DNA of 64,000 bases, taken from positions 3,162,001 through 3,226,000 of the forward strand of contig NZ_CP011125.1 of assembly GCF_000737325.1 (NCBI RefSeq). Reading direction: 5' to 3'. The position numbers and the translations under genes were made by a program. The first letter of the stretch is position 1. Each line of letters starts with the position of its first letter. This document shows positions 26,513 through 30,663 of this stretch, one piece after another. This DNA comes from Sandaracinus amylolyticus (GTDB taxonomy: Bacteria; Myxococcota_A; Polyangia; Polyangiales; Sandaracinaceae). Below the pieces are notes generated by a model. It was not told where the DNA came from. It was given only the letters and a program-made list of their open reading frames with translations, and did not search any database.

Positions 26513-27124
26513 ATGGCGCGTTCGATCGTGTTGCGTCTCGGGGACGAAGAGAGCGCCTTCGCGTTCGCGAAGGTCGAGCGCGACAAGCTCTACGGGCGCA
26601 AGCAGCGGGTCGTCGTCGACGAGCAGAACCGCGCGTGCGCGCAGGCGTACCTGACGGCCGACGGGACCGCGCTCGTGCCCACGGGTGGCACCGCGCACGT
26701 GTGGATCGACGAGCGCTGGGACGCGGTCGAGCAGGACGGACGCCTCCCGGTGGACGAAGCCGGACAGGCGCTCGAGCTGCATCCGTCGACGCTCGGTGTC
26801 GCGCAGGACGCGAGCGTGGTCGACCCCAAGCGCGTGCTCGATCACGTCACGAGCGCGATCTACCAGCTCGATGCCGAGGCGATCTCGCCGAAGCTCGAGG
26901 ACGTGCTCGCGAAGGGCGGGATCGTCGAGGTGCCGTTCTGCTACCGCGACGGCTTCGATCAGGACGTGCTCTTCGTGCTGAAGAACGACGAGGGCTACTT
27001 CGCGATGGTGGCGCAGCCGACGGGGTTCGAGATGCTCGAGCGCGAGGCGCTCCCGCTCGCGATCGAGCCCTCGGGCGAAGAGAGCGACGAGCTCTCGGAC
27101 GATCTCGACTTCTCGATGATGTGA
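26513..27124 (+). CDS. Unrecognised protein, first gene of the ligase-like cassette
   Basis: 203-residue soluble protein, ATG at 26513 with GAGGAG upstream. No signal peptide or membrane helix. It opens MARSIVLRLGDEESAFAFAK, and the first half (KQRVVVDEQNRACAQAYLTADGTALVP) looks beta-rich. The second half (VVDPKRVLDHVTSAIYQLDA...VEVPFCYRDGFDQDVLFVLKNDEGYFAMVAQPTGF) ends in an acidic tail. I do not recognise the family. Ten bases separate it from the next gene, which in turn overlaps the ligase-like gene, so the three are almost certainly co-translated and act together. Confidence 0.8.
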   Translation: MARSIVLRLGDEESAFAFAKVERDKLYGRKQRVVVDEQNRACAQAYLTADGTALVPTGGTAHVWIDERWDAVEQDGRLPVDEAGQALELHPSTLGVAQDASVVDPKRVLDHVTSAIYQLDAEAISPKLEDVLAKGGIVEVPFCYRDGFDQDVLFVLKNDEGYFAMVAQPTGFEMLEREALPLAIEPSGEESDELSDDLDFSMM

Positions 27125-27134
27125 GGGAAGGGCG

Positions 27135-27881
27135 ATGCCGAGGCTGATTTCGATCGCAGATGCGAAGAAGCGCGACGCGCAGATCGAGCTCGTGTCGCCC
27201 GCTCGCGGCGAGCGCGTGCGCTGGGTGAGCAAGGGCCACGGCGCGCCGCTCAAGCTCGAGCGCCTGATCAAGAGCACCGAGAAGACGAGCTTCGACGCGC
27301 TCGTGAAGCAGGTGGGCTCGCCCGAGGCGCTGTCCAAGGCGCTGGTCGAGGGCGATCCCGAGATCGATCTCGAGCAGGTCGGTCGCCGGCTCGGCAATGC
27401 GACGCGCGTGTGGGTCGGGCCCGAGGGCAACGTGCTCTACGCCGCGCGTGTGCTGCAGATCGTGAGCGCGCCCGACGGCGCCGAGAAGTCGCGCGCGGAC
27501 TTCGTCGACGTCGAGGCGACGGTCGGCGAGGAGCAGCCGCCGATCCTGTGGTCGGGGCGACTGATGCCCGCCGATCAGGTGGTGCGCCGCTTCGCGCTCG
27601 TGCGGAAGGTGCAGCTGCGCCACGTGAACGGCCTCACCTTCGACTTCCTCCACGACATCGCGGCGCACCTCGATCGCGAGCAGAAGCTGCTCGTGGTCGG
27701 CGCGGGACCGAAGGCCGCGCTCCCGCTGATCTTCCAGACGAACGGCACGCCGTTCCGCGGGTTCCTCGAAGGACGCGTCGAGGGCGAGCGCTACAAGCTC
27801 GTGCTCCACCTCTCGAACCTCGAGATCAAGCGCGTCGCCGCGCCCGCGAAGGACGTCGCGCTGCCGAAGGAGGGCGCATGA
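27135..27881 (+). CDS. Unrecognised protein, second gene of the ligase-like cassette
   Basis: 248-residue soluble protein, ATG at 27135 behind GAGGGAAGG. It is basic at the N-terminus (MPRLISIADAKKRDAQIEL) and contains LKLERLIKSTEKTSFDALVKQVGSPEALSKAL, a helical stretch. It ends with a beta-rich half (LPLIFQTNGTPFRGFLEGRVEGERYKLVLHLSNLEIKRV). No catalytic motif is evident. Its stop overlaps the start of the nucleotidyltransferase gene (ATGA). It could be a DNA-binding or adaptor subunit of the ligase-like enzyme (inference from gene order only). Confidence 0.8.
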   Translation: MPRLISIADAKKRDAQIELVSPARGERVRWVSKGHGAPLKLERLIKSTEKTSFDALVKQVGSPEALSKALVEGDPEIDLEQVGRRLGNATRVWVGPEGNVLYAARVLQIVSAPDGAEKSRADFVDVEATVGEEQPPILWSGRLMPADQVVRRFALVRKVQLRHVNGLTFDFLHDIAAHLDREQKLLVVGAGPKAALPLIFQTNGTPFRGFLEGRVEGERYKLVLHLSNLEIKRVAAPAKDVALPKEGA

Positions 27882-29575
27882 GCGCCGAGGCGTGGAAGTC
27901 GTGGGCCGCGGTGAGCGAGCCCTACGGGAGCGGGCGCAAGGCCGGCGTCGGCGCGCTGCTCGATCAGGATCTCCTCTCGCGGCTCAAGCGCTACAAGCGC
28001 CAGGTCGCGAAGCGCTATCGCGTGGTCGAGCCCGACATCGTCGATCGCGCGCTGCCGAGCGGTGAGCAGCTCTTCATCTCGCCCAAGCTCGACGGAGAGC
28101 TCTGGTTCCTCGTGAAGCGCGAGGGCGACGTCGCGCTCGTCGCGTACAACGGGCGCGTGCTGCACGGCATCTCGGTGCTGAGCGGGGTCGCGAAGAAGCT
28201 CGAGGGGGTCTCGCAGATCGTGATCGCCGGCGAGCTCGTCGGCGCGTCCGGCAGCGAGCGGCCGCGATCGCACCACGTGAACACTGCGCTCTCGGACACG
28301 AAGCTCGAAGGCGCGCTCTCGTTCCACGCGTTCGATCTCGTCGAGGAGGACGGCGCGGACGCGCTCTCGCGCAACTACGAGGCGCGGCACACGCGCTTGC
28401 TCTCGCTGCTCGGCGAGGACGCGGGCGCGCGCTGCACCGTCGTGCACACGCAGCGCGGCGAGCCGAACGTCGTCGCGCAGCGCTATCGCGACTGGGTGCT
28501 CGCGGATCGCTTCGAGGGCGTCGTCGCGCGCAGCGATCGCGGCCTCACCTACAAGATCAAGCCGACGAGCACGGTGGATCTCGTCGTGCTCGCGTTCGGC
28601 GAGCGCATCACCGGCAACGTGAAGCAGGTGCGCGAGCTGCAGGTCGGCCTGGTGCGCGAGGACGGGAGCTTCCAGCTCGTCGGGTCGGTGGGCACCGGCC
28701 TGTCCGAGGACGATCGCGTGAAGTGGCACGCGAAGCTCAGCGCGATCGAGGCGAAGAGCTCGTTCCGCCTCGCGAACCGCGAAGGCACGCTGTGTCGCTT
28801 CGTGCGGCCCGAGATCGTCGTCGAGGTGCGCGTCTCCGACTTCCTCTCGAGCGACGGATGGGACGTTCCGATCCGACGCATGTCGCTCGGGTGGGATCCG
28901 TCGAGCGGCTGGCGCGCGATCGGTGAGACGCGCACCGCAGTGCCGCTCCATCCGGTGCTCCTGCGCGAGCGCACCGACAAGACCGTCGACGTCGGCAGCG
29001 TCGGGATGACGCAGATCACCGCGTACCTCGACGACGTCGCGGAAGAGGTCGTGAAGGCGACGCGGCGCGCGAGCGCCGAGGTCGTGCGTCGCGCGGTGTT
29101 CACGAAGGACGCGAAGGGCGCGGTCGCGGTGCGGAAGATCGTGGTGGTGCGCACCCACAAGGAGCACGAGGGATCGCACCCGCCGTTCGTGGTGTTCGCG
29201 ACCGACTACTCGCCGGGCCGGAAGGAGCCCCTGCAGACGACGCTGCGCACGGCATCGAACGCCGAGGGCGCGGACGCGCACGTGGTCGCGTGGCTCGTCG
29301 AGAACGTGAAGAAGGGCTGGAACGAAGTCGTCGAGCAGCGGAAGGGCGTGCCCACGGTCGCGGCGGAGACGCCGCCCGTCGAAGAAGCGAGCGCGCCGGC
29401 CCCGAAGACGGCGAAGAAGAAGAGCGCCGCGAAGAGCGAAGAGCCCGAGACGACGTCGGCCGCGCCTCCGAGCGAAGCGGAGGACGCGGCCGACGAGGCG
29501 AAGCCGAAGAAGAAGGCAGCGCGCAAGCGCGCGACGAAGAGCGAGGGCGCGTCGCCCGAAGACGAAGCGAAGTGA
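27878..29575 (+). CDS. ATP-dependent DNA ligase-like nucleotidyltransferase with basic C-terminal tail
   Basis: 565-residue protein of the ATP-dependent ligase/mRNA-capping superfamily. Visible motifs: I, SPKLDGELW with the lysine expected to be adenylated at 70; an IAGELVG strand (117-123); III, ALSFHAFDLVEEDG (146-159); IV, FEGVVARS (212-219); V, TYKIKPTSTVDLVVL (224-238). A presumed OB-fold part follows (VKQVRELQVGLVRE...). After about residue 460 comes a Lys/Ala-rich tail (KTAKKKSAAKS, KPKKKAARKRATKS) able to bind DNA non-specifically. Motif I has Glu where most ligases have Arg (KxDGxR), which argues for a divergent substrate. It overlaps the preceding gene by four bases. No Ku, primase or nuclease domain. 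Confidence 0.85.
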   Translation: MSAEAWKSWAAVSEPYGSGRKAGVGALLDQDLLSRLKRYKRQVAKRYRVVEPDIVDRALPSGEQLFISPKLDGELWFLVKREGDVALVAYNGRVLHGISVLSGVAKKLEGVSQIVIAGELVGASGSERPRSHHVNTALSDTKLEGALSFHAFDLVEEDGADALSRNYEARHTRLLSLLGEDAGARCTVVHTQRGEPNVVAQRYRDWVLADRFEGVVARSDRGLTYKIKPTSTVDLVVLAFGERITGNVKQVRELQVGLVREDGSFQLVGSVGTGLSEDDRVKWHAKLSAIEAKSSFRLANREGTLCRFVRPEIVVEVRVSDFLSSDGWDVPIRRMSLGWDPSSGWRAIGETRTAVPLHPVLLRERTDKTVDVGSVGMTQITAYLDDVAEEVVKATRRASAEVVRRAVFTKDAKGAVAVRKIVVVRTHKEHEGSHPPFVVFATDYSPGRKEPLQTTLRTASNAEGADAHVVAWLVENVKKGWNEVVEQRKGVPTVAAETPPVEEASAPAPKTAKKKSAAKSEEPETTSAAPPSEAEDAADEAKPKKKAARKRATKSEGASPEDEAK

Positions 29576-29597: not shown

Positions 29598-29759
29598 TCA
29601 GATCCGGCGCACGGACTCGAGCGTGCGCTGGGCCGACACGCGTCGATCGCCGAGCGTCGCGCGACGCTCGTCGGCGCGGCGATCGGGCACCTCGCGTCGC
29701 GGCTCGGCCTCGGCGTAGTCGACGATCGAACGGGTCTGCTGGGGGTCGTTCCAGAGCAT
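29598..29759 (-). CDS. Possible small protein overlapping the methyltransferase start
   Basis: 53-codon frame starting MLWNDPQQTRSIVDYAEAEP and rich in Arg/Asp/Glu, with strong G/C third-base use like real genes here. Its ATG and the methyltransferase ATG share the palindrome CATG (29757-29760), so both cannot be freely used at once. No ribosome site is visible. It may be a real small basic protein, or chance. If real, the methyltransferase may begin later. Confidence 0.35.
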   Translation of the reverse strand: MLWNDPQQTRSIVDYAEAEPRREVPDRRADERRATLGDRRVSAQRTLESVRRI

Positions 29760-30663
29760 GGCGGGCAGTCTCGGCAAGCGTCGGATCGCGAGCAAGAAAG
29801 CGGCGCTGCGGCGCATCGTGCACGGCGAGAGCCTCGCCGCGCTCGCGACGCTGCCCGATGCGTGCGCGCGCCTCGTGTACATCGATCCGCCGTTCAACAC
29901 CGGGCGCGTGCAGTCGCGCCGACGGCTGCGCGTGACGCGCGACGAAGAAGGCGAGCGCATCGGCTTCCAGGGCGCGCGGTATCGCGTCGAGAAGCTCGAC
30001 GAGGTCGCGCGCTACGACGACAAGCGCGGCGACGAGTACGTGCCGTGGCTGATGTCGCGCGTGGAGGCATCGCTTCGCTGTCTCAGCGAGGATGGATCGA
30101 TCTTCGTGCACGTCGATCCGCGCGAGTCGCACTACGTGAAGGTCGCGCTCGACGGATTGCTGGGACGCGCGTCGTTCGTGAACGAGATCGTGTGGGCCTA
30201 CGACTACGGCGCGCGCACCAAGAAGCGCTGGCCCGCGAAGCACGACGTGCTGCTCTGGTACGCGCGCGACCCGAAGCGCTACGTGTTCGATCACGACGCG
30301 ATCGATCGCGTGCCGTACATGGCGCCGAAGCTCGTCGGTCCCGAGAAGGCCGCGCGCGGCAAGACGCCGACCGACGTGTGGTGGAACACGATCGTGCCGA
30401 CCAACGGACGCGAGAAGACGGGCTATCCCACGCAGAAGCCGCTCGCGATCCTCGAGCGCATCGTGCGCGTGCACAGCGCGCCGGGCGACGTCGTGCTCGA
30501 CTTCTTCGCGGGGAGCGGGACGACGGGCGAAGCGGCGGCGAAGCACGATCGCGGGTTCGTCCTGATCGACTCGAGCCGCGACGCGGTGCGCGTGATGAAG
30601 GCGCGGCTCGCGCGCTGGGAGCCCGAGATCGCGCGCGTGCGCTCGCGTTCGCGCGTTTTTTGA
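29758..30663 (+). CDS. Site-specific DNA methyltransferase, N4/N6 type, beta-class order
   Basis: 301-residue stand-alone methyltransferase transferring a methyl group from S-adenosylmethionine to adenine N6 or cytosine N4. The catalytic motif IV comes first (LVYIDPPFNTGR, about 40-51), then the SAM-binding motif I near the C-terminus (VVLDFFAGSGTTGEAA, about 246-261). GYPTQKPLAILERI precedes motif I. This order is that of beta-class enzymes, as in Mod subunits of type III systems. At about 300 residues it lacks room for a large separate recognition domain, and no nuclease gene is adjacent, so it is probably an orphan methylase. It lies 182 bp after the ligase-like cassette on the same strand. 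Confidence 0.92.
   Translation: MAGSLGKRRIASKKAALRRIVHGESLAALATLPDACARLVYIDPPFNTGRVQSRRRLRVTRDEEGERIGFQGARYRVEKLDEVARYDDKRGDEYVPWLMSRVEASLRCLSEDGSIFVHVDPRESHYVKVALDGLLGRASFVNEIVWAYDYGARTKKRWPAKHDVLLWYARDPKRYVFDHDAIDRVPYMAPKLVGPEKAARGKTPTDVWWNTIVPTNGREKTGYPTQKPLAILERIVRVHSAPGDVVLDFFAGSGTTGEAAAKHDRGFVLIDSSRDAVRVMKARLARWEPEIARVRSRSRVF

Follow-up and report, generated by a model that had tools for sequence, protein, structure and literature searches.

What is the function of three tightly packed genes in a myxobacterial genome, one of them encoding an ATP-dependent ligase and the other two encoding proteins without a match in Pfam, NCBIfam, PHROGs or PADLOC? The genes lie on the forward strand of the 64,000-nucleotide stretch of DNA that was analysed (the window), in a genome of 10.3 Mb assembled as a single contig. 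Gene A (positions 26513-27124; 203 aa) is separated by 10 bp from gene B (27135-27881; 248 aa), which shares an ATGA overlap with gene C (27878-29575; 565 aa), and the three open reading frames stand as described in an earlier, sequence-only reading of this DNA. Genes A and B each encode a predicted Ku-fold subunit, and gene C a dedicated ATP-dependent ligase. We consider it likely that the trio is a compact NHEJ-type DNA end-joining module, in which a divergent Ku-fold heterodimer of A and B works with ligase C.

The trio is a conserved functional unit, far beyond chance, because the same gene order recurs across phyla. A collection that spans 84,980 species of bacteria and archaea yielded 309 loci with a relative of B; many of these are MAGs, and the taxa, as taken from record titles, include Myxococcota, Planctomycetota, Verrucomicrobia, Lentisphaeria, Bacteroidota, Bacillota, several Proteobacteria, Actinomycetota and others. 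Among the best 80 of the 309 loci, which come from many phyla, the order A-B-C is found in 72 and B-C in 79. The earlier proposal of a single complex is supported here in the sense of one complex or pathway, as is its end-processing theme. Eight of these 80 loci lack an adjacent A: in three of them A lies at another place in the genome, and in three more B sits at the edge of a contig. Across loci, the median A-B gap is about 14 bases and the B-C distance is most often -4, and the pairwise distance matrices of the three show correlations of 0.83-0.85 (64 loci; not corrected for kinship).

Of 38 relatives, the same 10 carry A, B and C, always together. Across 284 Myxococcota genomes, A was present in 37, and B and C in 36 each, with the specific C ligase counted at E below 1e-50 (the next ligase matches drop to 1e-19). 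The three genes share the same 36 genomes, mostly as neighbours, which decisively answers the earlier concern that they might not be conserved together even in close relatives; in the sole genome with A only (G212), the contig stops 84 bases past this gene. Plasmids searched with A and phages searched with B gave no match, 2.9 million viral contigs likewise contained no relative of B, and a phage or plasmid origin of the trio was rejected on these null results.

The ligase is the only one of the three proteins with domains recognised by Pfam or NCBIfam. C passes the Pfam cut-offs for PF01068 DNA_ligase_A_M (2.3e-6, 27.9 bits against 26.2) and PF04679 DNA_ligase_A_C (8.3e-10, 39.4 bits against 27.5), in agreement with its previous placement in the ligase superfamily from motifs I, III, IV and V. 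Among NCBIfam models, the NHEJ ligase domain TIGR02779 ranks first (1.8e-22, at 79.9 bits far short of the cut-off of 227.75), and the nearest solved sequences in a PDB sequence search are those of the LigD ligase domain (1vs0/6nhz). No POL or PE domain was matched in C with either Pfam or NCBIfam. Motif I (KLDGELW, 28085-28105) contains Lys70, the predicted adenylated lysine; motifs IIIa (E119), III (F152-D153), IV (E213-G214) and V (K226, K228) extend over 28232-28561, and a motif VI-like RERTDK (R363, R365, D367, K368) lies at 28964-28981, all on the forward strand. Motifs I, IIIa, III, IV and V are kept in 72-76 of 76 homologues, with K70 and D72 present in 75 and G73 in all of them, and R365, D367 and K368 of motif VI are present in 75 of the 76. 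K70, D72, G73, E119, D153, E213, G214, K226, K228, R365, D367 and K368 are each retained in 74 to 76 homologues, and because these catalytic residues are kept, C should be an active nucleotidyltransferase.

At its C-terminus, C carries a WGR-like domain (29090-29323, forward strand), in which R405, K420, R448, G480 and W481, all within the last 90 conserved residues, are invariant in 76 of 76 homologues. Aligned to a WGR alignment with hhalign, this domain gave a probability of 74% over 38 columns, at a score of 30.4, where the best of 60 shuffles reached 13.9; the Pfam families listed for the 76 homologues do not include the WGR profile PF05406. The Lys-rich tail to which the sequence-only reading had drawn attention was rejected as a feature, as it is not kept in most homologues. 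Two variants of C were also identified. In one homologue (L204:4613-6034), ALPGG replaces KxDG and the active-site Lys and Asp are lost, while the WGR-like domain is kept, and this protein is perhaps a non-catalytic paralogue. At two other loci (L166:3605-6913 and L202:2404-5532), C is fused to a C-terminal Cdc48-type AAA ATPase (PF00004 and AAA_lid_3), with a further region between the two.

The absence of the Arg from motif I, first noted for KLDGELW of the window protein, proved to be general, as the Arg of KxDGxR (position 75) is never present in the 76 homologues and is mostly replaced by L, F or M. This missing DNA-ligase residue, and weak matches to PF09414 RNA_ligase in 18 of the 76 homologues (E<=0.5, best 3.4e-6, the window protein not among them), would suit a module for the repair or joining of RNA, or of the ends of RNA-DNA hybrids, possibly after nuclease attack, with C as an RNA ligase and A and B as RNA-end binders. 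We regard this as very unlikely, given that the PF04679 OB domain of DNA ligases is found in all 76 homologues (E<=0.5) alongside motif VI, that the best NCBIfam matches of C are NHEJ DNA ligases, that Ku is a DNA-end protein, and that no RNA-repair genes were found as recurring neighbours of the trio.

For A and B, which had been called unrecognised proteins, we indeed found zero matches in Pfam, NCBIfam, PHROGs and PADLOC. The Pfam search of 20 members of each family gave no match, to Ku (PF02735) or otherwise, and the Ku profile run on this genome finds a separate canonical Ku only, and neither A nor B. Compared by hhalign with 17 canonical myxobacterial Ku sequences, A reached a probability of 0.3% and B of 0.2%, both inside the shuffle range, with the best path between A and Ku colinear across 126 columns. 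The comparison of A with B was weak at best (26.3, where the highest of 60 shuffles scored 23.1), and HMM searches of the A and B alignments against PDB sequences returned nothing convincing. A sequence-level tie of either protein to Ku was thus rejected, the hhalign scores being no better than those of shuffled columns, and because the Ku family sequence test failed, we do not file A and B as members of PF02735.

Since sequence profiles show no link to Ku, the assignment of A and B comes from structure prediction. AlphaFold models, built from 69 aligned sequences for A and 79 for B, had mean pLDDT values of 90.3 and 89.5, respectively. In Foldseek searches of the PDB, Ku was the top match for B (best apo-MtbKu, E=2.6e-6), and all 46 matches at E<=1e-3 were Ku chains, alone or in complexes; the top match for A was the same apo-MtbKu chain (E=2.5e-5), and all 20 of its matches at this threshold were Ku. 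Among the viral models of BFVD, A had two matches at E<=1e-3, both to phage Ku (4.9e-5 and 8.4e-5), with the next at 0.13. VIA-align gave Z-scores against Ku of 12.1 for B and 9.8 for A, while TM-scores against bacterial Ku were moderate (0.36-0.51) and full-length rmsd large. Both proteins are thus predicted to carry the Ku core beta-barrel fold, contrary to the earlier statement that there is no Ku; from the fold plus context, we infer that they are homologous to Ku, and they probably work like it.

Alternatively, A and B could share a Ku/SPOC-type beta-barrel while serving the ligase as scaffolds or as adaptors that bind proteins, with no DNA-encircling ring. The Z-score of B against a related SPOC domain (11.2) is close to that against Ku, A scores 7.5-8.3 against INTS13/14 and MED25 ACID, and neither protein has a sequence match to Ku. 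We nonetheless think an adaptor or scaffold role unlikely: every Foldseek match at E<=1e-3 is to Ku, the whole bacterial Ku aligns more residues than SPOC or ACID domains do (for B, approximately 152-153 on Ku against approximately 111 on SPOC), and the partner protein C is an NHEJ-type ligase. The position of TIGR02779 as the nearest curated family of C was reached independently of the folds of A and B.

A further conserved feature is the acidic C-terminal tail of A (27098-27121, forward strand), which ends DDLDFSMM in the window protein. The last 20 residues of A average 45% D/E across 68 homologues, and the tail closes with a near-invariant DLDFxM at the extreme C-terminus; a [LMIF][DE]F motif was found in 63 of the 68 homologues by strict pattern, and is visible in nearly all. 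We take this tail to resemble in kind the acidic C-terminus of Ku80, by analogy only and as a lead.

Taking the end-joining reading beyond what is shown (a conserved three-gene unit, predicted Ku folds and intact ligase motifs), we infer heterodimer formation, a ring around DNA, DNA-end binding, ligase recruitment and joining. A and B would pair, most likely as an obligate heterodimer in the manner of Ku70/Ku80 and in contrast to the homodimer usual for bacterial Ku, into a Ku-like ring that threads onto broken double-stranded DNA ends. C, a ligase of LigD type that has neither polymerase nor nuclease domains, would then be recruited to the ring and held at the end via the A tail or its own WGR-like domain, the WGR-like domain and the acidic DLDFxM tail being likely docking or DNA-end contacts, and would self-adenylate at Lys70 before sealing the ends. 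After sealing, the A-B ring may in some lineages be stripped off by an AAA or MoxR partner, comparable to the action of p97 on Ku. The fusion of C to an AAA ATPase of Cdc48 type at two loci speaks for the end-joining reading; in eukaryotes, p97/Cdc48 extracts Ku rings after joining (PMC5577460). Against this reading stand the missing sequence link of A and B to Ku, the moderate TM-scores, the absent motif I Arg together with the weak RNA_ligase matches, and two Myxococcota genomes, the window genome among them, in which canonical Ku accompanies the trio.

The window genome also encodes a canonical Ku, followed by a stand-alone ligase with a 337-aa open frame and the motif KFDGYR (G000 C1:5259684-5261386; L239, L015). 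Elsewhere, 48 of 50 further genomes with the trio have no canonical Ku, which fits a repair role of the trio's own. Within the 284 Myxococcota genomes, the trio and canonical Ku overlap in two, the window genome included, against 4.95 expected (P=0.095), which is suggestive only of mutual exclusion within this phylum. Tandem pairs of canonical Ku genes were observed in two other Myxococcota genomes (G007 C105:219969-221250 and G099 C291:19497-20883).

We considered whether the genes around the trio point to further components or to a different role. Upstream, a LysR gene ends approximately 40 bp from the trio, and downstream there is a lone DNA methylase, positions that agree with the sequence-only reading; their membership in the system was rejected, since both are linked to the trio only in a near-identical congener, and the other local genes around the trio also recur only there. 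The methyltransferase (window 29758-30660) matches PADLOC MTase_II (4.9e-128), and beside it no restriction partner was seen. No recurrent fourth gene was found in most loci, with MoxR/vWA, DUF2779 and ankyrin neighbours in a few each; the neighbours are mostly unrelated housekeeping genes, and BrxL, TIR, MoxR/vWA and DUF2779 neighbours occur at a minority of loci.

Several of these minority loci have a distinctive composition. At one (L159:3-3586), a BrxL-like protease and a DUF2779-like protein lie upstream of the trio, in a BREX-type defence context. At another (L173:11511-18250), the trio is followed by a LOG-like gene and by genes for a TIR protein, for a DNA ligase of the NAD-dependent type with WGR and BRCT domains, and for another WGR-like protein, bringing two ligase types together in one island. 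Another group of loci (L151, L167, L182, L183 and L163) has an AAA_5/MoxR-like ATPase then a DUF2201 metallopeptidase-vWA protein beside the trio, and in L163 a SWIM/MoxR/DUF5682-type/vWA cluster lies directly 3' of C.

Such surroundings raise the question of whether the trio is a dedicated anti-phage or conflict system, in which the binding and ligation of ends would either shield the host's own genome or be directed at invading DNA. The BrxL and the TIR/NAD-dependent ligase loci, the MoxR-like and DUF2201 genes (as in L183) and the MoxR/SWIM/DUF5682-type cluster adjoining the trio, as well as its patchy distribution among phyla, would fit this idea; we rate it the least probable of the readings considered here, as A, B and C have no match in PADLOC-DB 2.0.0 up to E 1, as the neighbours are for the most part housekeeping genes, and as B has no relative among the viral contigs searched. 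The genome-maintenance or defence role suggested earlier is narrowed in its second part, with defence possible at some trio loci only.

The preferred reading, an end-joining module built on a Ku-fold heterodimer, can be set beside the known systems. NHEJ in bacteria is known as a Ku homodimer with LigD (PMC12784961). As in the Ku and LigD systems of Mycobacterium and Bacillus, the trio pairs a predicted Ku-fold end binder with an ATP-dependent ligase gene, the core of C is nearest to TIGR02779/LigD, and the distribution is patchy; in contrast, the trio has two distinct subunits instead of one, both missed by PF02735, and its ligase differs from LigD in having neither polymerase nor phosphoesterase domain, in lacking the motif I Arg and in carrying the WGR-like domain. 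Stand-alone NHEJ ligases of the LigC type similarly have no POL or PE domains, but the stand-alone ligase beside the canonical Ku of this genome differs from C, which has KLDGEL in place of KFDGYR, an N-terminal extension and the WGR-like domain. Tandem canonical Ku genes are known in bacteria such as Sinorhizobium, for which heterodimers have been proposed (PMC1378119). These pairs, like those of G007 and G099, share with the trio two Ku-type genes side by side, but they are ordinary PF02735 members, whereas A and B fall outside the profile and are distant from one another in sequence.

The trio also invites comparison with eukaryotic Ku70/Ku80 and ligase IV, in having two different predicted Ku-fold subunits, one of which (A) has an acidic-hydrophobic C-terminal tail whose likeness to Ku80 we presume by analogy only, and in its link to a Cdc48-type AAA ATPase, seen in two fusions of C. 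Unlike Ku70/Ku80, A and B have no vWA, SAP or DNA-PKcs-binding domains, and sequence similarity between the two systems is undetectable.

We found no prior description of the trio in open papers, most of the subscription literature lying outside the search, and the earlier suggestion of an undescribed system is borne out in these papers and in Pfam, NCBIfam, PHROGs and PADLOC. A survey of bacterial NHEJ by Ku and LigD sequence profiles, with an HMM cut-off of 1e-4, reported it in approximately 22% of genomes (PMC7719229). Because such surveys relied on Ku sequence profiles (PMC7719229), A and B were probably invisible to them. A broader reading, to which we give even chances, is that the trio represents a second bacterial lineage of Ku-based end joining, made up of a Ku of two obligate subunits and a WGR-ligase dedicated to it, which would have spread horizontally across many phyla and taken the place of canonical Ku-LigD, with an AAA/MoxR partner in some lineages that removes the Ku ring once the ends are sealed.

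If true, a Ku-like system that is invisible to profiles and present in hundreds of species would change the count of bacterial NHEJ, and would offer a natural bacterial two-subunit Ku for comparison with Ku70/Ku80. It would likewise provide a minimal end-joining kit of three proteins, useful in reconstitution and in genome editing, and the AAA fusions would offer a bacterial counterpart, open to testing, of the way in which p97/Cdc48 removes Ku rings.
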